Below are positions 2,190-19,907 of a DNA stretch of 21,745 bases, piece after piece. The position numbers and the translations under genes are program-made. Position 1 is the first letter of the stretch. Every line of letters begins with the position of its first letter. This DNA is from a virus. The notes under the pieces were generated by a model that had not been told where the DNA came from, made no database searches, and saw nothing but the letters and a program-made list of their open reading frames with translations. The stretch covers positions 1 through 21,745 of IMG/VR virus record IMGVR_UViG_3300009184_000246, one strand, 5' to 3'.

Positions 2190-2903
2190 ATGGCGACAAC
2201 CGCCGGTGATCAAATTAATGCAGCATTACGTTTAATCGGTATGCTTGCCGAGGGTGAAACGCCTTCTGCCAATACTTCACAAGATGCTTTGAACGCTTTG
2301 AATCAAATGATTGATTCATGGAATACTGAACGTCTATCAGTTTTTTCTACCCAAGATCAAGTATTTACTTGGACTCCTAATCAGATTCATAGAACATTAG
2401 GGCCAACAGGTGACTTTGCGGGTAATCGCCCTATTTTGCTTGATGATTCCACTTATTTTAAAGATCCTACTAATGGGATTTCGTTTGGTATTAAGATTAT
2501 TAACCAACAACAATACGATGGCATTGCGGTTAAAACAGTAACTTCCACCTATCCACAAGTGATGTGGATTAATATGGATTACCCTAATATTGATATGTAT
2601 GTATACCCAGTGCCTACAAAAGCATTGGAATGGCATTTTATTTCGGTTACTGAATTAGACCAACCCGCTAATCTTTCAACTAATTTGACTTTCCCGCCTG
2701 GCTATTTAAGATGTTTTAAATACAATTTGGCTTGTGAAATAGCTACCGAATTTGGCATTGAGCCACCTTCAAACGTAGCTCGTATTGCCATGACTTCTAA
2801 GCGCAATTTAAAACGCATTAATAATCCTGACGATATTATGTCGTTGCCTTATAGCATTGTAGCTACGCGTCAACGCTTTAACATCTTTGCTGGTAATTAT
2901 TAA
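2190..2903 (+). CDS. P22 gp4-like tail accessory factor (head completion)
   Basis: In P22, gp4 binds beneath the portal after DNA packaging and provides the docking ring for the rest of the tail machine. This 237-residue protein has the features of the gp4 family: an N-terminal helical part with IDSWNTERLSVFS (residues about 41-53), a central beta region, then a 'PPGYLRCFKYNLACEIATEFG' type helix and 'RNLKRINNPDDI' near the C-terminus. An AAGGAG site sits 7 bases before the ATG. Its stop overlaps the start of the gp10-like gene by one base (TAATG), implying translational coupling. The gene order coat, gp4, gp10 matches P22 and supports the call. Confidence 0.85.
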   Translation: MATTAGDQINAALRLIGMLAEGETPSANTSQDALNALNQMIDSWNTERLSVFSTQDQVFTWTPNQIHRTLGPTGDFAGNRPILLDDSTYFKDPTNGISFGIKIINQQQYDGIAVKTVTSTYPQVMWINMDYPNIDMYVYPVPTKALEWHFISVTELDQPANLSTNLTFPPGYLRCFKYNLACEIATEFGIEPPSNVARIAMTSKRNLKRINNPDDIMSLPYSIVATRQRFNIFAGNY

Positions 2904-4342
2904 TGAAATCGCATATTTTGGGGCAATCTTATGTTGCCCGCAGCGTCAACGCGGCGGACGATGTAATGATGAACTTGTTTCCAGAAGCTACGCCAAATGA
3001 AGGCAAAGAAAACGGTTTTTTAAATAGAGCGCCAGGGATGCGTAAACTTGCCACAATTGGCAAAGGCCCAATTCGCGCTCTATGGGCGCATCAGACTAAC
3101 GGTGCCGACGCTTACGTTGTATCAGGCAATGAAGTTTTTAAAATTGACAACGGGTATTACCCTACTAAATTAGGCAATATTGCTGGATCAGGCCCAGTGT
3201 CCATTGCTGACAATGGTACACAACTGTTTTTTGCTGCTAATCCTCAAGGCTATATCTATGATGAAGTAGCTAACACTTTTACCCAAATTACTGACCCCGA
3301 CTTCCCCGGCGCAGTAACTGTAGGCTACCTAGATGGCTATTTTGTATTTAACGAGCCAGATAGCCAAAGAATTTGGGTTACTGAGATATTTGACGGTACT
3401 TTAATTGACCCTTTAGCGTTTGCTAGTGCTGAAGGCTCACCAGACTTAGTTCAAGCCATTAACGTAGATCAACGTGAGCTTTGGGTATTTGGTACAGACA
3501 CCATTGAGGTGTGGTACAACGCAGGTACGGCTAATTTCCCTTTTGCGCGCATTCAGGGCGCTTTTAATGAGTTAGGGTGCCTAGCCCCTTACTCCGTAGC
3601 AAAACTTGATAACACGTTGTTTTGGCTTGGTAATGACCCGCGTGGTTATGGCATCATTTATCGTGGTGAAGGCTATCGTGGCAAACGCGTATCAACACAC
3701 GCTATTGAGTACGCCATCCAAAGCTACGGCGATGTATCAAACGCTATTGCCTACACTTATCAACAAGAAGGTCATGCTTTTTATGTATTAATATTCCCTA
3801 CAGTTAATAAGACTTGGGTTTACGATGTGTCCACAGGCGCATGGCATGAACGTGCAGGCTTTGAAAACGGCTACTTTACGCGTCATCGTTCCAACTGCCA
3901 AATGAATTATCAAAGCCAAACCATTGTTGGCGACTATTTAAACGGCAATTTATATGCTTTTGACTTAGATGTTTATAACGATAATGGTGCAGTGCAAAAA
4001 TGGGTTCGTTCTTGGAGAGCGCTTCCTACAGGAACTAACAACTTAAAACGTACTGCTCAACACACATTACAGCTTGATTGCGAAGCAGGCGTAGGTACAA
4101 ATACAGGGCAAGCGCAAGATCCACAAGTCATGCTTCGTTGGTCAGATGATGGCGGCCATACTTGGTCAAATGAACATTGGGTATCGGTTGGCAAGATTGG
4201 TGAATATTATCGCCGTGCTATTTGGCGTCGACTTGGCATGACAATTAAGCTTCGTGACCGCGTGTATGAAATTTCAGGCACAGACCCATCCAAAATGGTA
4301 ATTATGGGCGCTGAATTAATATTGAGCGGTACAAATGCCTAG
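2903..4342 (+). CDS. P22 gp10-like packaged-DNA stabilization protein
   Basis: The P22 gp10 family forms the tail hub between the gp4 ring and the needle and keeps packaged DNA in the head. This 479-residue protein (P22 gp10 is about 470) begins with the family pattern of a Tyr-Val-Ala-Arg-Ser-Val-Asn-Ala stretch and 'NLFPE', then repeated beta-strand units consistent with a propeller-like fold, including VDQRELWVFGTDTIEVWYNAG and the tail of the protein with LRDRVYEISGTDPSKMVIMGA. Length, order after gp4 and these patterns agree. The ATG lies in the stop of the preceding gene, and its own TAG overlaps the next small gene. Confidence 0.87.
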   Translation: MKSHILGQSYVARSVNAADDVMMNLFPEATPNEGKENGFLNRAPGMRKLATIGKGPIRALWAHQTNGADAYVVSGNEVFKIDNGYYPTKLGNIAGSGPVSIADNGTQLFFAANPQGYIYDEVANTFTQITDPDFPGAVTVGYLDGYFVFNEPDSQRIWVTEIFDGTLIDPLAFASAEGSPDLVQAINVDQRELWVFGTDTIEVWYNAGTANFPFARIQGAFNELGCLAPYSVAKLDNTLFWLGNDPRGYGIIYRGEGYRGKRVSTHAIEYAIQSYGDVSNAIAYTYQQEGHAFYVLIFPTVNKTWVYDVSTGAWHERAGFENGYFTRHRSNCQMNYQSQTIVGDYLNGNLYAFDLDVYNDNGAVQKWVRSWRALPTGTNNLKRTAQHTLQLDCEAGVGTNTGQAQDPQVMLRWSDDGGHTWSNEHWVSVGKIGEYYRRAIWRRLGMTIKLRDRVYEISGTDPSKMVIMGAELILSGTNA

Positions 4343-4511
4343 TAACTTAACCACTATTCCTGCACCTAGAGTTCCATTAATAGATCCTACTACAGGATTA
4401 ATTTCTAACGAATGGTATCGTTTTTTCTTTAATTTATACACGTTAACTGGGGCAGGTGGAAATTCTATTTCTTTGTCAGATTTGCAACTTAATCCGCCAT
4501 CTATAGATTAA
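4335..4511 (+). CDS. Small conserved phage protein (58 aa) after gp10
   Basis: 58 residues beginning MPSNLTTIPAPRVPLIDPTT, then GLISNEWYRFFFNLYTL. The block 'PAPRVPLIDP.TGLIS.EWYRFF.NL' is a pattern I recognise from many phage genomes immediately upstream of tail-fibre genes, with no assigned function. The start overlaps the last 8 bases of the gp10-like gene in another frame, so translation is probably coupled. The aromatic WYRFFFNLY segment could bury against another tail protein. In P22 the tail needle gene follows gp10; this protein is far too short to be a needle. Confidence 0.72.
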   Translation: MPSNLTTIPAPRVPLIDPTTGLISNEWYRFFFNLYTLTGAGGNSISLSDLQLNPPSID

Positions 4512-6451: not shown

Positions 6452-7078
6452 ATGTCATTAGTTCTTAGTGGTGATTCACCCAATTTAACAAGCGCTACGT
6501 TAACTACGCCTACAATAACTACGCCTACAATAACTGGCGGAACATTATCAAGCCCAACAATAACCACGCCAACACTTAATAGTCCTACAATTAACACCCC
6601 AACAATGGGTGGTAGCGTGATTACTAATGGAACTGCCGTAGCTTCTACAAGTGGTACAAGCATTGACTTTACTGGTATTCCTAGTTGGGTAAAGAGTATT
6701 ACTGTGATATTTAATGGTGTAAGTTTAAACGCTAGTAGCGCGCCTTTAATTCAATTAGGAACTTCAGGGGGAATTATATCTACTGGATATTCTTCTTCAA
6801 GCTATCAAAATGTTGGTAATGCTTCAATTTCTTCGACAGCAGGATTTTGTATTTACGAAAATACAAGTGGGCAAGAATGTAGTGGAAGTTATGTTATAAA
6901 TTTGTTAAGTTCAGGAATTTGGGCTGGCGGCGGGAATCATTGCAGAGAAACTTCGCCAGCTATGAAAGTGTCTGCTGGCAGACTTACTGGTGCTGGAACA
7001 ATAGACCGTGTTCGCATCACCACAGTAAACGGTACAGATACCTTTGATGCTGGTTCTATTAATATCCAATACGGGTAA
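6452..7078 (+). CDS. Tail-fibre protein with pentapeptide stalk repeats
   Basis: 208 residues. Residues 18-52 are seven consecutive five-residue units of the form x-x-P-T-(I/L/M) (TTPTI, TTPTI, TGGTL, SSPTI, TTPTL, NSPTI, NTPTM), a stalk repeat seen in phage fibres. The first two units are encoded by an exact 15-bp tandem repeat (6501-6530). The C-terminal ~140 residues (GTSIDFTGIPSWVKSITVIF and a Gly/Ser-rich region with Cys) look like a globular tip. The N-terminus MSLVLSGD resembles that of the short fibre gene at 5518. An AGG ribosome site (GAGGTTTAATT) lies before the ATG. Confidence 0.8.
   Translation: MSLVLSGDSPNLTSATLTTPTITTPTITGGTLSSPTITTPTLNSPTINTPTMGGSVITNGTAVASTSGTSIDFTGIPSWVKSITVIFNGVSLNASSAPLIQLGTSGGIISTGYSSSSYQNVGNASISSTAGFCIYENTSGQECSGSYVINLLSSGIWAGGGNHCRETSPAMKVSAGRLTGAGTIDRVRITTVNGTDTFDAGSINIQYG
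6501..6530 (+). repeat. Exact 15-bp tandem repeat (two copies)
   Basis: The unit TAACTACGCCTACAA occurs at 6501-6515 and again at 6516-6530. It encodes two identical pentapeptides of the fibre stalk, so it can change stalk length by in-frame slippage or recombination. Confidence 0.9.
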
Positions 7079-7423: not shown

Positions 7424-7518
7424 TGGAACATATTTTACATAGCTATGCTAATAATACGAATGAAAATGCTATTATGCTCATAATTACTATTCAATCAAAC
7501 AAAGTGCGAGGCGCGTAA
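7423..7518 (+). CDS. Possible 31-aa coupled small protein
   Basis: The reading frame from the ATG at 7423 encodes 31 residues (MEHILHSYANNTNENAIMLI, then ITIQSNKVRGA). It begins inside the stop of the previous gene (TAATG) and ends inside the start of the cupin gene (TAATG), filling the gap exactly. That double coupling is the main support. No family is recognised and no strong ribosome site is seen. Alternatively the gap is a leader: TG-C-TATTAT at 7467-7475 resembles an extended -10 box for the cupin gene. Confidence 0.42.
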   Translation: MEHILHSYANNTNENAIMLIITIQSNKVRGA

Positions 7519-7868
7519 TGCAGTGTATTAGCGAACTACATAAGATAATGGAAGGCACTTTTGAGATTGATCTTGGTGTTATACATAACTTTTCTGACGG
7601 TTTATACGCCAAACAGATAGTTATTCCTAAAGGGTATGTAGTTGGTCAACACGCTCATAAATACAGTCATTTAAGCATTTTGGCTAAAGGTAAAGTAATT
7701 GTAAAAACAGACTTGGGCGAAAAAGAATATACGGCTCCCGCTTGTTTAGAGATAAAAAAAGGCGTCCATCACGCTGTTGAAGCGTTAGAAGACACCGTTT
7801 GGTTTTGTATTCACGCTACAGACGAAACAGACCCTGACAAAATAGACAACGTATTGATTGAGGATTGA
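7518..7868 (+). CDS. Cupin-fold metal-binding protein
   Basis: 116 residues of a single small cupin barrel. Motif 1 is visible as G43-Q-H45-A-H47-K-Y-S-H51 ... G58; H51 sits where many cupins have Glu, giving an all-His metal site as in several small cupins. Motif 2 is KKGVHHAVEA, with H84 or H85 as the remaining ligand. GAGG lies 6 bases before the ATG. The next gene, an iron-dependent oxygenase candidate, begins 3 bases after the stop. The reaction is unknown; possibilities are a dioxygenase, an isomerase or a small sugar-binding protein used on tail or host surface components. Fold assignment is firm, function is not. Confidence 0.8.
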   Translation: MQCISELHKIMEGTFEIDLGVIHNFSDGLYAKQIVIPKGYVVGQHAHKYSHLSILAKGKVIVKTDLGEKEYTAPACLEIKKGVHHAVEALEDTVWFCIHATDETDPDKIDNVLIED

Positions 7869-7871
7869 GAA

Positions 7872-8537
7872 ATGAATTTTGATTTTAACAACGGAAGATT
7901 AGTACCAAAAAAAGACTTTACGTTAGTTGGTATAAATTTCGATGTGCGCCCCTATATGGCGCAATTAAACGCGCATCCTGAGCTATGGGATCAAGGACGT
8001 GATTTCCGTAAGATCCCGCGATACAACGGCCAATTGTCCCCTCATCGTGAGTCACAGGACATTTGGGTACGCCATCAGCCATACGATTCTTTTGGTAACT
8101 ATGATGCTAATGAAAAAGAACAAGCTAAGATGATGGTGCCTACTGTTTCTGAATGGTACCCTGAGTCTTTAAAGTTACCCGCAGCGATGGATTTGGCGCA
8201 AACTGTTTGCCAGCATCTTGGAGCTATTCAGTTGGGCGGTCACTATGTAATCAAAATACCCGCAGGTAAAAAAGTTTACCCGCACAGCGATTTTTCATGG
8301 CACAGCACTTACTATAACAAATACCTAGTAGTTTTAAAAACACAGCCAGGCGTTGTTTTTGGCTGGGAACGTAGTGGAAACATGATTCCAATTACAGGGG
8401 ATTTGTGGAATTTTGAGAATGATACGCAACACTGGGTTTACAACGATTCTGATGAAGATGTACTGATTGCTACTTTTAGCGTTCGTACATTCGACATGGA
8501 TCGCCGTGAAACCTTAAATAACGCAAAAGGAGCATAA
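7872..8537 (+). CDS. Aspartyl/asparaginyl beta-hydroxylase-like oxygenase
   Basis: 221 residues resembling the Asp/Asn beta-hydroxylase branch of Fe(II)/2-oxoglutarate oxygenases. The core shows GGHYVIKIPAGKKVYPHSD with H138-S-D140 as two iron ligands, then GDLWNFENDTQHWVYNDSDE with H187 as the third. In the family an Arg ten residues after the last His binds 2-oxoglutarate; here that place is V197 and the nearest Arg is R205. This may mean an altered cosubstrate site, or my alignment is off by a strand. It is paired with the cupin gene, lies between fibre and ejection genes, and could modify a virion protein (inference). GAGG precedes the ATG. Confidence 0.78.
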   Translation: MNFDFNNGRLVPKKDFTLVGINFDVRPYMAQLNAHPELWDQGRDFRKIPRYNGQLSPHRESQDIWVRHQPYDSFGNYDANEKEQAKMMVPTVSEWYPESLKLPAAMDLAQTVCQHLGAIQLGGHYVIKIPAGKKVYPHSDFSWHSTYYNKYLVVLKTQPGVVFGWERSGNMIPITGDLWNFENDTQHWVYNDSDEDVLIATFSVRTFDMDRRETLNNAKGA

Positions 8538-8538
8538 T

Positions 8539-9297
8539 ATGCCAGCAGGATGGGCCGCCGCCGCCGTAGCAGGAGCCACTGTAGTAAGTGGATATATGGG
8601 TTCACAAGCCGCAAAAAGCGCGGCTCAAACACAAGCCGACGCCGCTAATAATGCTACCGCAGCTAATAACGCTGCGTTAGCTCAACAAGCGGAAATGAAC
8701 GCGCCTTGGCGCACGGCGGGTACAACCGCCGTAAATCAGTTATCTGAAATGACGCAACCTGGCGGTGAAGCTACTAAAGCATTTTCTTATGATCCTTTTA
8801 ATTATCAAGCTGACCCTGGCTACGCTTTTAGGCTTAAAGAAGGCATGAAAGCCATGAACGCTACCGCAGCGGCTAGGGGTGGTTTGATCTCTGGTAATGC
8901 TATCAAAGCTGGTCAAGCTTATGGTCAAGAATTGGGTTCACAAGAGTATGGCAACGCGTTTGACCGTTATTTAAAGAACTATGCTAACGCTCAAAACACT
9001 TTTCAATTAAATCGTAATAACCTATTACAACCGTTGCAATTCTTAAGTGGCCAAGGACAAGCCGCCGCCGCAGGGCAAGCGTCTAATATTGGCGCTAACG
9101 CAGCCAATAACACTGCGTTGTCTACGGGCGCCGCTAATGCCACCGCAGCCGGTCAAGTCGGTTCTGCTAATGCCTATACCAACGCTATTGGTCAGGGTGT
9201 CAGTATGTACCAAACCAATGCGTTATTAAATAGATTTGCGCCACAAACGCCGACACCAACGCCTAATTATTATGATCCTGGTGGTCAAACTACTTAA
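8539..9297 (+). CDS. DNA-ejection (DNA transfer) protein, P22 gp7-like position
   Basis: 252 residues, Ala/Asn/Gln-rich. It opens with a hydrophobic Ala/Val/Gly stretch (residues about 4-20) and then a helical AA-rich segment. The core, DPGYAFRLKEGMKAMNATAA then ARGGLISGNAIKAGQAYGQE and NAFDRYLKNYANAQNTFQLN, is the hallmark of a phage family widely annotated as DNA transfer proteins. Such proteins are packaged in the head and leave with the DNA to form a channel into the cell. A strong AAAGGAG ribosome site precedes the ATG, which lies immediately after the oxygenase stop. Position at the head of a three-gene ejection set agrees. Confidence 0.78.
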   Translation: MPAGWAAAAVAGATVVSGYMGSQAAKSAAQTQADAANNATAANNAALAQQAEMNAPWRTAGTTAVNQLSEMTQPGGEATKAFSYDPFNYQADPGYAFRLKEGMKAMNATAAARGGLISGNAIKAGQAYGQELGSQEYGNAFDRYLKNYANAQNTFQLNRNNLLQPLQFLSGQGQAAAAGQASNIGANAANNTALSTGAANATAAGQVGSANAYTNAIGQGVSMYQTNALLNRFAPQTPTPTPNYYDPGGQTT

Positions 9298-9309: not shown

Positions 9310-10485
9310 ATGCCAATAGATCCAAGTATTCCCCTTCAAGTTCAGCCATTAAAGCTTGAATCGCCAATGAACCAGTTGGCTATGATGGGCGACGCCATGA
9401 AAATTGGCGAAATGCAACGTAGCATGGGTGTTCAAAATGAACTACGCAACTTATATTCGCAAGGTGTAGATGTTAGTACGCCTGAAGGTTTTAATAAATT
9501 AGCGTCTATTGACCCTAAAACAGCAATGGCGTTGAGAAATGACGCTTTGCAAGGGCAAAAACTTCAAGGCGAAATTAAAAAAACAGGCTTTGAAATAGAT
9601 GACAAAAAATTGGGTATTATCCGCGAACGTAGCAAAGATCTGCTTCAAAATTTATCACCTGAAAATTTTATTGCTCATACGCAAGAAAATGTACGAGATG
9701 GTTTAGTTACCCCCGAACAAGGGAAACGCGCAATACAAAATTATATTGCAACACCGCCTGATAAACGTGCGGCGCTTATTAATCAAAATTTAGCTAGGGC
9801 TGAAAAAGTTTACGAAATGAACACGGTTAGCGCAGCGCAACAACAAACTGCTGATATTACTAAGCGTGGGCAAGACATTCAAGCAGGCACAACCCGCCGT
9901 GGTCAAGATTTGCAATATGCGCCTGATGTTGTGGCTAATACTCAAGTTGATTCTAAAGGCAATATTACTCAATTTAACCGTTTTGGTAAAGTAATTGGGC
10001 AACTTGAAGGTGTCGGCAAACCAAGCGCTACGTATGAAAAAACCGCCGCATTGCAAAAACAAATGGGTAAAGACATTGATTTGGCAATTAGCGAAATTAA
10101 AAATGCTATTAAACCCGGTGGCACTCTTGATAAATCTACAGCTAGTGGAGCAGGTAAAATGCTTGATGCTGCGGGTAACTTTATTGGCTATGCTACATCT
10201 GGTTCTATTGCGGCTGCTGAACTTAAACCTGTTGGCGATCTTGCACTTAAAATGGTACCGCGCTTTGAAGGCCCACAATCTGACAAAGATACGGCGTCTT
10301 ATACACTTGCGGCTGGTCAATTGGCTAATGAGAACTTACCTATTAAAACAAGACGCGCTGCTGCCGAAACGGTTGTACGCATAATGGAAAGACGTAAAGG
10401 TCAATTTGTTAATCAAGCAATGGCAAGCGAAGGTATTAACGCAGGTGGCCCTGCATTGCCTCCTGGCTTTACTCCAGATAAATAA
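9310..10485 (+). CDS. Predicted DNA-ejection/internal virion protein
   Basis: 391 residues, mostly predicted helix and Gln/Lys-rich. Near residues 181-200 there is a duplicated basic motif T-K/R-R-G-Q-D-I/L-Q (ITKRGQDIQAG, then TTRRGQDLQYA), a pattern that recurs in phage ejection proteins. The C-terminal half contains GGTLDKSTASGAGKMLDAAG and DTASYTLAAGQLANENLPIK, also found in unnamed proteins of P22-like phages. It lies between two other ejection candidates, corresponding in order to P22 gp20. No enzymatic motif is seen. AAGG lies before the ATG. Role inferred from place and composition. Confidence 0.72.
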   Translation: MPIDPSIPLQVQPLKLESPMNQLAMMGDAMKIGEMQRSMGVQNELRNLYSQGVDVSTPEGFNKLASIDPKTAMALRNDALQGQKLQGEIKKTGFEIDDKKLGIIRERSKDLLQNLSPENFIAHTQENVRDGLVTPEQGKRAIQNYIATPPDKRAALINQNLARAEKVYEMNTVSAAQQQTADITKRGQDIQAGTTRRGQDLQYAPDVVANTQVDSKGNITQFNRFGKVIGQLEGVGKPSATYEKTAALQKQMGKDIDLAISEIKNAIKPGGTLDKSTASGAGKMLDAAGNFIGYATSGSIAAAELKPVGDLALKMVPRFEGPQSDKDTASYTLAAGQLANENLPIKTRRAAAETVVRIMERRKGQFVNQAMASEGINAGGPALPPGFTPDK

Positions 10486-15660: not shown

Positions 15661-15787
15661 TTTGATTCCTTTTCGTGGTGCAGTCTTGGCAAAACCATTT
15701 GTAAGTCAGACCGCCTGGGTTATTTACTGCGCTGCCAGTTGCATTATTTTTACGTTGTTGGCAGTTATTGCAAATTCTTAAAGTCAT
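15596..15787 (-). CDS. Small zinc-ribbon-like protein
   Basis: 63 residues with two Cys pairs, C6-N-N-C9 and C33-Q-D-C36, spaced like a zinc ribbon, in MTLRICNNCQQRKNNATGSA then YKWFCQDCTTKRNQ. The ATG overlaps the stop of the upstream secreted protein (ATGA), which supports it as a real gene even though its last 65 bases are shared with the next gene. It may bind nucleic acid or protein; function is not shown. Confidence 0.65.
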   Translation of the reverse strand: MTLRICNNCQQRKNNATGSAVNNPGGLTYKWFCQDCTTKRNQNERFKKILDVISQSTSSNGSC

Positions 15788-16092
15788 CGTCCAAATATCG
15801 AGTCATAAATAGGTGTCATAGATGATGGATTATAGACGGGCGTGGTATATACCATTGGTACTACCGGCGCTATTACAGTGCCTACAGACTGACCTTGTGG
15901 GCCATAGACATAGGTAGTATTGCCTGACTGCATGGCAGTGCCAGCAGATTGACCTTGTGGGCCATAAAAGTATTGCGTATTGCCTGACTGCATGACAGTT
16001 CCTAAACTTTGCCCTTGAGCGCCGTATAGGTACGTTGTTTGGGCAATAGCGCCGTTGCTAATTAACAAAAATGTTAATAAAGTCTTTTTCAT
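15784..16092 (-). CDS. Secreted protein with three 20-residue repeats
   Basis: 102 residues with a typical signal peptide (MKKTLLTFLLISNGAIA, probable cut before Q18). Three back-to-back 20-residue repeats follow at residues 19-38, 39-58 and 59-78, consensus T-x-Y-x-Y-G-P-Q-G-Q-S-x-G-T, with a M-Q-S-G-N linker in the first two. The C-terminal tail is Pro/Tyr-rich (VYTTPVYNPSSMTPIYDS). No membrane anchor or lipobox is seen, so it should reach the periplasm or beyond. Both ends overlap neighbours by ATGA. Its role in a DNA-metabolism operon is unclear; cell-surface change or superinfection exclusion are speculative options. Confidence 0.75.
   Translation of the reverse strand: MKKTLLTFLLISNGAIAQTTYLYGAQGQSLGTVMQSGNTQYFYGPQGQSAGTAMQSGNTTYVYGPQGQSVGTVIAPVVPMVYTTPVYNPSSMTPIYDSIFGR
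15859..16038 (-). repeat. Three tandem 60-bp coding repeats
   Basis: Three adjacent imperfect 60-bp units (16038-15979, 15978-15919, 15918-15859) encode the 20-residue repeats of the secreted protein. The block reading TGACCTTGTGGGCCATA on the + strand recurs nearly unchanged. Confidence 0.85.
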
Positions 16093-16958: not shown

Positions 16959-18289
16959 CTCAACTCCTCAATCGCTATGTCAGAAATTGCTCGTTTATCT
17001 TTCAAGGCATCCCAAATTCGTAAATCAATTGTTTTATTGGTCAATAAAAGATAAACCCATACATCGTGCTTTTGACCGCTGCGGTGCAAACGGCCTACTG
17101 TCTGCTCGTACAATTCAAGGCTCCAGGGCAACGATACAAAGACCATCTTGCTACCGCCATGCTGAAGGTTTAAGCCATGCCCTGCACTCTTAGGGTGAAT
17201 CAATAGCAATTCAATCTTGCCGTCATTCCAACGCTCAATAGCCCTAGGGTCATTGATTGTTTGCGCGGTGGGATACCGACGCTTTAATTCAGCTAATTCT
17301 TCGATGTAGTTGTAAACAATAATTGTGTTGGCGCGTTGATTTTCTTGTAGCAACTCATCTAATAAGTCAAACTTGTGGTGCGAAAACCACAACGGCGTTT
17401 GGGTTACATTCATGCGCCCTGGCGTATTAGATGGTGTTGTTTCAGTCTGATAAATAAAACCTGACGCCATCTGTTGTAGCTTTCCGGTTACAACGGCTGC
17501 GCTAACTGCCGTAATTTCTTTATCTTGAAATTCAACAACGTAGTCTTTCTTCATCTTCTCGTATGGGGCGCGGTCTGTTAGCTCGCAACTTAACTCGACA
17601 ACATGGCACGGCGGCAACGTATTGGCGTATTCGCCAGCTTCTAAAACAAATGTAGCAGGTTTGATCTTTTCCATAACTTTTCCTAATGAGCCTACCCGAG
17701 GCTCCCACTCGCCAAAGTCTTTATTGACCAAGACAAAATACTGTTGCATAAACGCGCCTTTGGCACGTCCTAATAGATTCTGATCAACAATCTTGCATTG
17801 ACCAAAAACATCCTCTAAGCCATTGCTAGTAAAGCTACCAGTCAAACCCCAACGTATCTTGAATGGGTCTAACACTTTGGATAACGCTTTAAATCGTGCG
17901 CCTGATGGGTTCTTTAGCCTAGTTAGCTCGTCAAATACAATCCCATCAAAATCTAGGAATTGTTCTGATAACCATTGCAAGCTGTCATAGTTAACTACCA
18001 CCACGTTAGATTTACTACGCAACGCTTTAAGACGCTGGGCAGGCGTACCTACCGCAACACTTAGGGTTAACCCTGTAGCCCATTTAACTTGCTCTACAGG
18101 CCATACATCCGTACAGACGCGCTTAGGGGCAAGAACTAACCAACGCTTGACTAACCCTTGCTTGATGGCGTCTTGCATCGCTGTGAGCGTTATAGCCGTC
18201 TTGCCAGCGCCTACTGGCGCTAAGATCATGGCTCTGTCTTTCTCAAACAAAAAGTCAGCAGCCGTGTCTTGGTAATGGCGCAACTTCAT
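16955..18289 (-). CDS. SNF2-type superfamily 2 helicase/translocase
   Basis: 444 residues, a compact SF2 helicase of the SNF2-like phage group. The N-terminal half has a Q-motif-like YQDTAADFL, Walker A (APVGAGKTAIT, 24-34), the DEAD-box position as D120-E-L-T and motif III-like GLTGSFTSN. The C-terminal half has motif V (HPKSAGHGLNLQ, 365-376) and motif VI (YEQTVGRLHRSGQ, 394-406), including the arginine finger. Such proteins translocate on duplex DNA using ATP. It follows the methyltransferase and VRR-NUC nuclease in one operon; phage VRR-NUC and SNF2 helicase genes often lie together, suggesting joint replication or recombination work. ATGA overlaps on both sides. Confidence 0.9.
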   Translation of the reverse strand: MKLRHYQDTAADFLFEKDRAMILAPVGAGKTAITLTAMQDAIKQGLVKRWLVLAPKRVCTDVWPVEQVKWATGLTLSVAVGTPAQRLKALRSKSNVVVVNYDSLQWLSEQFLDFDGIVFDELTRLKNPSGARFKALSKVLDPFKIRWGLTGSFTSNGLEDVFGQCKIVDQNLLGRAKGAFMQQYFVLVNKDFGEWEPRVGSLGKVMEKIKPATFVLEAGEYANTLPPCHVVELSCELTDRAPYEKMKKDYVVEFQDKEITAVSAAVVTGKLQQMASGFIYQTETTPSNTPGRMNVTQTPLWFSHHKFDLLDELLQENQRANTIIVYNYIEELAELKRRYPTAQTINDPRAIERWNDGKIELLLIHPKSAGHGLNLQHGGSKMVFVSLPWSLELYEQTVGRLHRSGQKHDVWVYLLLTNKTIDLRIWDALKDKRAISDIAIEELR

Positions 18290-19635
18290 AGCAACTCATT
18301 CACTAAATCAATGCCATCGCCAATCCATTGCATACACGGCACCGCCATTGAGTTGCCAAGGGCTTTGTAACGTAAGCCGTCCGGTGCGGTGTCTTTTTTA
18401 CGCCACGGAATATCAGTAAAGCTATCAGGGAAGCCTTGCAACCGTTCACATTCAGTTGGGGTAAGCCTACGGACAGCCATTGAAGCGGCATAAATAGCCG
18501 CAACTTGGTTTGTTACTTCTGTTGATTGAGGGCTACGACTAGGGTCATTACTAGCGGTTAATGTTGGGGCTACAATATTTTGTGCAATAAATGTTTGAGC
18601 ATGATGTGATTGAACCGATGGACGCAACGCTTGTAAAGCAGGCGTAACAGTTAACGGCGTAGCGCTAAACGTATTGGCTTTAGCATCTTCACGTATTGAA
18701 TATGCAACAGCAACTTGGTTGTTCCCCATTTCAGCACGTAAAGTTGGGGACATTTCTTCACTAAATCTAGATGAATTTCCTTCTCGTTTAGCTATACCTG
18801 GCTCAAAACCATAAGCTACATTTTGAACAAAAGGTATATTGCCACCGCCTGTACCCCAACTGCTTGTTACTGTTTGGCATACATCACCCATTAATTTTAC
18901 TCTGCTATCTGATGGATGGTTTTCGTAAACAGTAGGTATTAATCTTCCTGTGTAAGCGTCTTGTCCGCTATAAGATCCGGGGTGGGTATCGGCACAGAGG
19001 GTTCCGACTGTTGTTTGTAAACCGTTGCTATCAAAGCCTTCTTCAATAATGGCGGGAGTTCTTTCCCCCTCGTTTCTGCTCGGCGCAAGATCCCGGCGCA
19101 AGCTAGAGCGCTCAAATAATACTGCGGCGGCAGGTCGCCAATCTCCAAGGTACCCGACAACAAAGACACGACGCCTGCGCTGTGCCACTCCACAGAATTG
19201 AGCGTCCAAAACTCGGTAGCTGAACCCATACCCGAGTTGAGCCACCGCCCCGAGGAAGGAACCAAAGTCCCGTCCGCCTGAGCTTGACAAGACACCTGGG
19301 ACATTTTCCCAGACAAACCAGTTCGGTCTAAAGTAGTCAAGCATTCCGCAATAGACGAGGGCCAAGTTACCACGCGGGTCATCCATTCCTTTCCGCAGTC
19401 CTGCAACTGAGAAGGATTGACAAGGGGTTCCGCCAACGAGGAGGTCGATTTTTCCATCTAAATTCCAATCTTTATATTTGGTCATATCACCAAAATTGGT
19501 GACATCGGGATAGTGATGCGCTAATACGGCTGATGGAAATGGCTCAATCTCAGAAAAACCCGCAGGCTTCCAACCTAAATCGTGCCAAGCCATCGTAGCA
19601 GCTTCGATACCGCTACAAACTGATAAATATCTCAT
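18286..19635 (-). CDS. C5-cytosine DNA methyltransferase
   Basis: 449 residues. Motif I is VCSGIEAATMAW (SAM binding), motif IV TPCQSFS with catalytic C72, motif VI WENVPG (E110), motif VIII QRRRRVF (152-158), and motifs IX-X end in KALGNSMAVP (425-433). The ~170 residues between motifs VIII and IX (about 200-385) form the target recognition region, which in this protein contains several short repeated-looking segments such as 'NNQVAVAYSI' and 'TNQVAAIY'. It would methylate cytosine in phage DNA to evade host restriction or to mark it for phage enzymes. No cognate restriction enzyme is obvious unless the adjacent VRR-NUC serves. ATGA overlaps join it to both neighbours. Confidence 0.93.
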   Translation of the reverse strand: MRYLSVCSGIEAATMAWHDLGWKPAGFSEIEPFPSAVLAHHYPDVTNFGDMTKYKDWNLDGKIDLLVGGTPCQSFSVAGLRKGMDDPRGNLALVYCGMLDYFRPNWFVWENVPGVLSSSGGRDFGSFLGAVAQLGYGFSYRVLDAQFCGVAQRRRRVFVVGYLGDWRPAAAVLFERSSLRRDLAPSRNEGERTPAIIEEGFDSNGLQTTVGTLCADTHPGSYSGQDAYTGRLIPTVYENHPSDSRVKLMGDVCQTVTSSWGTGGGNIPFVQNVAYGFEPGIAKREGNSSRFSEEMSPTLRAEMGNNQVAVAYSIREDAKANTFSATPLTVTPALQALRPSVQSHHAQTFIAQNIVAPTLTASNDPSRSPQSTEVTNQVAAIYAASMAVRRLTPTECERLQGFPDSFTDIPWRKKDTAPDGLRYKALGNSMAVPCMQWIGDGIDLVNELL

Positions 19636-19907
19636 ACGTTAGCCATCCAAGTGTCGATATGCTCTTTAGTCCATAAGCAAGCATAGTTTTGATTGAGTTG
19701 TTTAAGGTTACGGGCGTGGATGCCTTGTAGGGCAGACAGCTTGCCACCTGTAGTCTTTAGCTCAACAAACCATGTCTGCCCACTAGGTAAGCAAGCGATG
19801 CGGTCAGCTACTCCGCGTTGATTGGGGGATCTGAACTTGTAGGTAATGCCCCCAAGGGACATTACAGCCCAGACGAAGTATTTTTCAATTTCGGTTTCTT
19901 TTGTCAT
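19632..19907 (-). CDS. VRR-NUC domain nuclease
   Basis: 91 residues, a stand-alone VRR-NUC (PD-(D/E)XK type) domain. Visible core: GVADRIA with D35, WFVELKTTGGKLSALQ with E49-x-K51 and Q61. Phage VRR-NUC proteins act as structure-specific nucleases and often lie beside SNF2-type helicases, as here (with the methyltransferase between). First gene of the leftward operon. No ribosome site is seen before the ATG, and a -10-like box ends 6 bases before it, so the mRNA may be leaderless. The stop overlaps the methyltransferase start (ATGA). Confidence 0.9.
   Translation of the reverse strand: MTKETEIEKYFVWAVMSLGGITYKFRSPNQRGVADRIACLPSGQTWFVELKTTGGKLSALQGIHARNLKQLNQNYACLWTKEHIDTWMANV

Follow-up and report, generated by a model that had tools for sequence, protein, structure and literature searches.

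Gene content of the locus

The window, i.e. the whole stretch of DNA analysed in this study, comprises 21,745 nucleotides (positions 1 to 21,745) of the viral IMG/VR record IMGVR_UViG_3300009184_000246. Two adjacent genes on its plus strand encode a cupin of 116 amino acids (7518 to 7868), assigned by matches to Cupin_2 and PHROG 12032 and by the fold of its AlphaFold2 model, and a putative iron oxygenase of 221 amino acids with an Asp/Asn/Pro-hydroxylase fold (7872 to 8537), assigned by the PF05118 matches of its relatives and likewise by its modelled fold. Coordinates and order of both reading frames agree with a preliminary description of this DNA, as does their location between a fibre-like and a DNA-ejection gene. 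Upstream of the pair, the plus strand encodes head closure protein Hc3 (2903 to 4342; PHROG 578, E 5e-130) and the fibre-like protein (6452 to 7078; PHROG 29482, E 9e-14; PHROG 18673, tail fiber, E 8e-6), while a DNA-ejection protein is encoded directly downstream on the same strand (8539 to 9297; PHROG 598, E 1e-26). These PHROG matches place the pair in the late virion block, and the gene order suggests that both proteins are produced late, together with the virion proteins. Both genes are under purifying selection, with pairwise dN/dS values of 0.05 to 0.11 for the hydroxylase (computable for five out of seven pairs, the other two being saturated) and 0.07 to 0.11 for the cupin (five pairs). 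Since these values are low, the two reading frames are more than chance occurrences.

The cupin

The window cupin matches Pfam Cupin_2 with an E-value of 4.7e-5, which is under Pfam's cut-off, and the profile of PHROG 12032, named "short tail fiber", with 1.8e-26. The AlphaFold2 model (pLDDT 90), computed from an alignment of 50 of the 52 cupins (L009, a short copy, and L146 were left out), has a small cupin fold with Z-scores of 11 to 13 to many cupins. Four histidines encoded within 7518 to 7868 on the plus strand (H45, H47, H51 and H85) are predicted to form a metal site; all four are kept in 104 of the 105 IMG/VR cupins examined, the window cupin included, i.e. in 52/53 cupins paired with a hydroxylase and 52/52 unpaired ones. 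Modelled fold and His-rich predicted metal site together are those expected of a member of the cupin superfamily.

The same sequence family includes cupins of Vibrio, Shewanella and other phages, several of them called "short tail fiber". In contrast to the window cupin, the four-histidine site is broken in all 11 named-phage relatives sampled. The family name therefore covers two kinds of protein, and by its residues the window cupin belongs to the one with the predicted metal site. The cupins of VPMS1 and BA3 are encoded before an ejection protein, as in the window, whereas no hydroxylase neighbour was present in the regions examined around the named-phage cupins. Proteomic support for PHROG 12032 as a virion fibre was not found in the accessible parts of the literature. 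One relative (L096, MW202744.1, 3926 to 4687) combines a cupin with a broken metal site and a subsequent SET domain (Pfam SET, E 6.4e-6) in a single reading frame, resembling a cupin-methyltransferase fusion.

Among PDB entries, the profile of the cupin family matches best to CelOCE, a cellulose oxidative enzyme (9bwf, E 9.5e-10). Activity of the CelOCE type is the copper-dependent cleavage of polysaccharides. CelOCE and the TM1459-like cupins are small single-domain proteins like the window cupin, but identity is only about 25% and other cupins fit equally well by fold (Z 11 to 13). The match is a lead only, and the substrate class of CelOCE is not transferable to the window cupin.

Family, fold and iron site of the hydroxylase

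The window hydroxylase alone gave no match in Pfam (none at E-values up to 1), PHROG or NCBIfam, nor among the sequences of the PDB. Of 21 aligned relatives, 14 matched the Asp/Asn beta-hydroxylase family PF05118 (best E 2.4e-17); matches of the relatives to PHROGs were weak. The top PDB matches of the relatives' profile were proline 3-hydroxylase (1e5r, E 1.7e-4) and L-proline cis-4-hydroxylase (4p7w, E 1.1e-3). The AlphaFold2 model (pLDDT 85, pTM 0.83) was built from 64 of the 67 hydroxylases, L014, L019 and L163 being left out. It resembles the caprazamycin beta-hydroxylase Cpz10 (7v4m, Z 14.7), proline 3-hydroxylase (14.7), the human aspartate/asparagine beta-hydroxylase AspH (5jqy, 6yyu; 13.3 to 14.3) and the cis-4-hydroxylase (14.2) over approximately 145 to 170 residues with 11 to 16% identity. 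Among predicted viral proteins, many of the top hits carry annotations as Asp/Asn/proline hydroxylases.

The predicted iron ligands are H138-x-D140 (8283 to 8291, plus strand) and H187 (8430 to 8432, plus strand), which are kept in 164/164 aligned rows; by the aligned ranges, H187 corresponds to H160 of Cpz10 and H725 of AspH. The residue numbers given earlier for this protein (H138, D140, H187, V197 and R205) are correct, and the proposal that both neighbouring genes encode metal-site proteins is in line with the conservation of the four cupin histidines and of the iron triad in relatives. Cpz10, the proline hydroxylases and AspH presumably all belong to PF05118, and the window protein appears to share the fold and the iron ligands of these solved members; an iron-oxygenase fold is therefore highly probable.

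All of these relatives differ from the window protein. Cpz10, the one of best Z-score and similar length, uses the triad His115, Asp117 and His160 and binds 2-oxoglutarate (2OG) with Arg170, ten residues after the distal histidine (according to the available text of PMC9814697); the window protein has a valine there, and the Cpz10 substrate is a small molecule. The two proline hydroxylases also possess an arginine at this position and act on free proline. AspH shares the double-stranded beta-helix, but only two histidines serve as its iron ligands (as far as described in the available part of PMC10947486), while the window protein has H-x-D plus H. Furthermore, AspH is driven by 2OG and acts on EGF domains. 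Substrates of the solved relatives range from free proline and a nucleoside intermediate to Asp/Asn of EGF domains, so the fold by itself does not favour Asp/Asn residues of the fibre, a target proposed earlier, over other substrates.

The cosubstrate pocket

Canonical Fe(II)/2OG oxygenases carry Arg or Lys ten residues after the distal histidine, and an arginine is found there in 1e5r, 4p7w, Cpz10 and AspH. In the window protein this position is V197 (8460 to 8462, plus strand). Judging from where the structural alignments end (206 on 179 of Cpz10, 217 on 755 of AspH), V197 lies on R170 of Cpz10 and R735 of AspH, which supports the earlier view that the arginine anchoring the C5-carboxylate of 2OG is replaced. 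The protein thus probably has a non-canonical 2OG site.

R205 (8484 to 8486, plus strand), a conserved Arg/Lys position, had been suggested to fill the place of the missing arginine. This is rejected on two grounds: the residue lies eight positions further on in the same predicted strand (197 to 206), i.e. approximately 26 Angstrom away at a strand rise of 3.3 Angstrom per residue, and it is Arg or Lys in 110/113 rows which also have Arg197. The residue that changes together with Arg197 in the alignment is position 127 instead.

In AspH, according to the available descriptions, R735 and S668 hold the C5-carboxylate of 2OG, and R688 and H690 hold the C1-carboxylate. By numbering from H138 = H679, I127 of the window protein (8250 to 8252, plus strand) would correspond to S668, and by numbering from H187 = H725, K150 (8319 to 8321, plus strand; Lys in 162 and Arg in 2 of 164 rows) would correspond to R688; both equivalences rest on these offsets. 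In the discovery set, position 127 ranked first out of 221 columns changing with 197 (0.95 versus 0.64 for the next column). Thr127 is typical of the canonical relatives and was present in 42/43 rows with Arg197 (Asn in the other), while Thr/Ser was lost in 33/35 rows without Arg197. A hold-out set was obtained from 159 candidates, 123 of which were less than 90% identical to discovery rows and were thinned to 87. Here, Thr/Ser was found at 127 in 70/70 rows with Arg197 and lost in all 16 non-Arg rows, most of which belong to clades already seen in the discovery set. In both sets together, the Thr/Arg combination at 127/197 occurs in 112/113 Arg rows and both residues are lost in 49/51 non-Arg rows, the two exceptions being L144 (Thr/Lys) and L128 (Ser/Ile). 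L113, a truncated sequence not included in the trees, and L306, with a gap at 197, were counted in neither group. Position 201 also shifts with 197 in both sets, as does 125 in the discovery set and 199 in the hold-out set.

The non-Arg rows comprise three clades of 26, 14 and 10 rows and the single Thr/Lys row. The window clade (10 rows) combines Ile127 with Val, Leu or Met at 197, the 14-row clade has Val/Ile with Ala/Val/Met/Asp, and the 26-row clade has Trp/Tyr with Tyr/His/Gln/Asn, apart from one Ser/Ile row. Most pairs of the latter clade are Trp/Tyr or Tyr/His, with which a carboxylate might still be bound. The tree contains only four changes at 197, hence tests on independent events cannot reach significance. 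Residues H138, D140, H187, K150, H58, D63, R67, W95, W143 and N191 are kept in the rows without Arg197 as well, with K150 exchanged for Arg in one of them. The exchange of both putative C5 contacts in three lineages is a new observation from the alignments; a change of cosubstrate is what it would predict.

The natural loss of the arginine is mimicked by the AspH variant R735W; structures of R735W and R735Q are available (8re7, 8re5, 8re6). According to PMC12816917, loss of this arginine shifts AspH to hydrophobic 2-oxoacids, R735W giving less than 1% with 2OG but more than 95% when the Val, Ile or Leu keto acid is supplied instead. In the window protein, Thr127 and Arg197 are both replaced naturally.

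Neighbours of the hydroxylase in related loci

Each retrieval of relatives was limited to the best 80, out of totals of 197, 239, 316 and at least 597, and all counts describe these samples. Searching for the same pair in other phages, as the preliminary description had proposed, was successful: all 17 loci retrieved with the window hydroxylase have an adjoining cupin, and among 79 different hydroxylases (including that of the window), 51 have a cupin gene no more than 400 bases away, 18 have a P-loop gene and 10 have neither. For the 87 hold-out hydroxylases the corresponding numbers are 65, 5 and 17. Cupin and P-loop gene together were found beside none of the hydroxylases, neither in the 79 discovery and 87 hold-out loci nor in loci selected by the P-loop gene. 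These mutually exclusive partners are a new observation. The cupin is encoded on either side of the hydroxylase; on the tree, the order changed about four times and the partner about eight times.

The P-loop partner has approximately 165 amino acids and is sulfotransferase-like. It was found at L105 (5505 to 6014), L140 (5136 to 5687) and 16 other loci, matched PHROG 10855 ("hydrolase") in 15/15 tested cases and reached at best an E-value of 8.5e-4 with Pfam Sulfotransfer_3, below the cut-off (five proteins scanned). When the P-loop gene was used for selection, 17 of the 72 loci had a hydroxylase, 53 did not and two lacked a called P-loop reading frame. On one contig (L226), two reading frames matching the hydroxylase profile (2862 to 3332 and 3717 to 4424) flank a P-loop gene, the first of them apparently partial.

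A match to an ejection-protein profile was present within the next three co-directional genes downstream in 51 of 66 loci, namely those discovery loci for which 1.5 kb or more of downstream sequence was available; an ejection neighbour was no selection criterion. For most of the remaining 15, the N-terminus encoded by the first or second gene thereafter is similar, as judged by eye.

The loss of Arg197 was also considered as a correlate of cupin pairing. In the discovery set, 34/35 non-Arg rows but 17/43 Arg rows were paired with a cupin. This association was upheld neither in the hold-out set (12/16 versus 53/70) nor in independent pairs. Pocket change and pairing are not tied to each other, as 53 of the 70 hold-out rows of the Arg type have a paired cupin too.

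Asp/Asn/Pro-hydroxylase genes are already known in phages. In the accessible text of PMC7029224 an Asp/Asn beta-hydroxylase is listed as a core gene of pelagimyophages, and 2OG oxygenase-like proteins are widespread in phages of marine bacteria according to the available part of PMC12774648. The literature searches made here gave no paper on a cupin-hydroxylase pair in phages. Three named phages (MW202665, Pseudomonas phage PfAn1 and Limnohabitans phage DC33) encode hydroxylases that are 26 to 41% identical relatives of the window protein, but no cupin is encoded beside any of the three. In PfAn1 (L002), a GNAT-like acetyltransferase (9610 to 10074) follows the hydroxylase, and in DC33 (L169) a protein that looks GNAT-like by eye (6603 to 7052) is followed by an ejection-like gene. 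DC33 (PQ492659.1) is classified as Inoviridae in the taxonomy of its record, yet has a 39-kb genome with genes looking like those of tailed phages, and is probably mislabelled.

A first scan of bacterial genomes gave no hydroxylase relatives. A second one with another alignment gave 11 hydroxylase loci, five with a cupin and one with a P-loop gene. Cupin-hydroxylase pairs are located in Paraburkholderia, Cupriavidus and Variovorax genomes (L401, L403, L404, L405 and L408), likely in prophages, and L401 (Paraburkholderia) carries the Trp127/Tyr197 set and L404 the Thr/Arg combination. The relatives of the hydroxylase thus include cultured phages as well as likely prophages of these three genera.

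Possible function of the pair

The explanation favoured here, with a probability of about 0.4 as a whole, is a late oxygenase module which uses a 2-oxoacid other than 2OG and modifies a virion component. The pair would be an accessory module that recurs in the late blocks of podophages, composed of a four-histidine metal cupin and a non-haem iron oxygenase which are made along with the virion proteins and encoded immediately before the first ejection gene. The iron held by H138, D140 and H187 would chelate the keto group and the C1-carboxylate of the 2-oxoacid, with K150 helping. In the window lineage, binding would proceed via iron and K150 with no grip on a C5-carboxylate, so that a hydrophobic 2-oxoacid would be expected rather than 2OG; since the Thr/Arg clamp is missing and Ile and Val would line the pocket in the window clade, an uncharged tail would be favoured. 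Use of a hydrophobic 2-oxoacid such as the keto acid of Val, Leu or Ile is put forward tentatively, by analogy to the AspH variant. The wider proposal, in which three phage lineages exchanged the C5 clamp and became 2-oxoacid oxygenases independent of 2OG that use branched-chain or other hydrophobic keto acids of the host, is still a little more doubtful, and a role of the adjacent metal cupin in making or processing this keto acid is pure speculation. If the favoured explanation is true, a natural family has made a cosubstrate switch like that of AspH R735W together with a coordinated second change, the cosubstrate of the Asp/Asn/Pro-hydroxylase class can change in nature, and phage modification is linked to the amino acid pools of the host. 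The pair also offers a handle on why such enzymes are repeatedly found at one particular position next to DNA-ejection genes.

The substrate is a weaker part of this explanation. A virion component, i.e. the fibre, the ejection protein or the cupin itself, may be hydroxylated during assembly; the probability of such a target falls somewhat short of even odds. It is favoured because the oxygenase gene keeps its position among the virion genes, ahead of the ejection gene; insertion at a common site might explain this position as well. A molecule of the host surface or a small molecule is almost as probable a target, and the enzyme might then serve superinfection exclusion, receptor change or the conversion of a metabolite. 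The nearest solved relatives have free proline or a nucleoside intermediate as their substrate, and the alternative neighbours resemble group-transfer enzymes (sulfotransferase-like, or GNAT-like in PfAn1). Pelagimyophages, with the beta-hydroxylase among their core genes, have surface-altering glycosyltransferases in the host-recognition region (available text of PMC7029224). This is countered by the fixed place just upstream of the ejection gene in most loci, and by the gene neighbourhood, in which nothing points to a pathway of more than one or two genes.

Continued use of 2OG, with K150, K128 or a residue of an unaligned loop holding the C5-carboxylate, is regarded as unlikely. A lysine has this function in some other 2OG oxygenases (FIH, JmjC), K150 is Lys or Arg in every row, K128 is basic in most, and the near solved relatives all use 2OG as far as the available literature describes them. 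On the other hand, K150 matches R688 of AspH by numbering, a C1 contact, and is no compensating change since it is equally present in rows with Arg197. Moreover, no basic residue among the top columns of the 221 scanned was gained with the loss of Arg197, and the partner column 127 changes to Ile, Val, Trp or Tyr.

The predicted 2-oxoacid oxygenase and the cupin would not work together at all if both merely occupied the same insertion site, located between the tail genes and the ejection genes, which seems more unlikely still. Cupins without a hydroxylase were found in 59/80 cupin-selected loci (the best 80 of at least 597), most P-loop-selected loci also lack a hydroxylase, and several of these have the P-loop gene directly before the ejection gene. 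Against this, a cupin adjoins the majority of hydroxylases in both sets and in both orders, and this frequent pairing, together with the complete mutual exclusion of cupin and P-loop gene, argues against a random hot spot. That the versions without Arg197 are non-catalytic iron-binding or structural proteins would fit the lost cosubstrate clamp and the broken metal sites of the named-phage "short tail fiber" cupins, but is improbable in view of the low dN/dS and of the iron triad and seven further residues retained in these rows.

Elsewhere in the window, three reading frames attracted attention by eye. A small protein encoded on the minus strand (15784 to 16092) has a signal-peptide-like start and a repeated unit of the YGPQGQS type in its translation. 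A DNA cytosine methyltransferase-like reading frame (18286 to 19635, minus strand) is adjoined by a small nuclease-like one (19632 to 19907).
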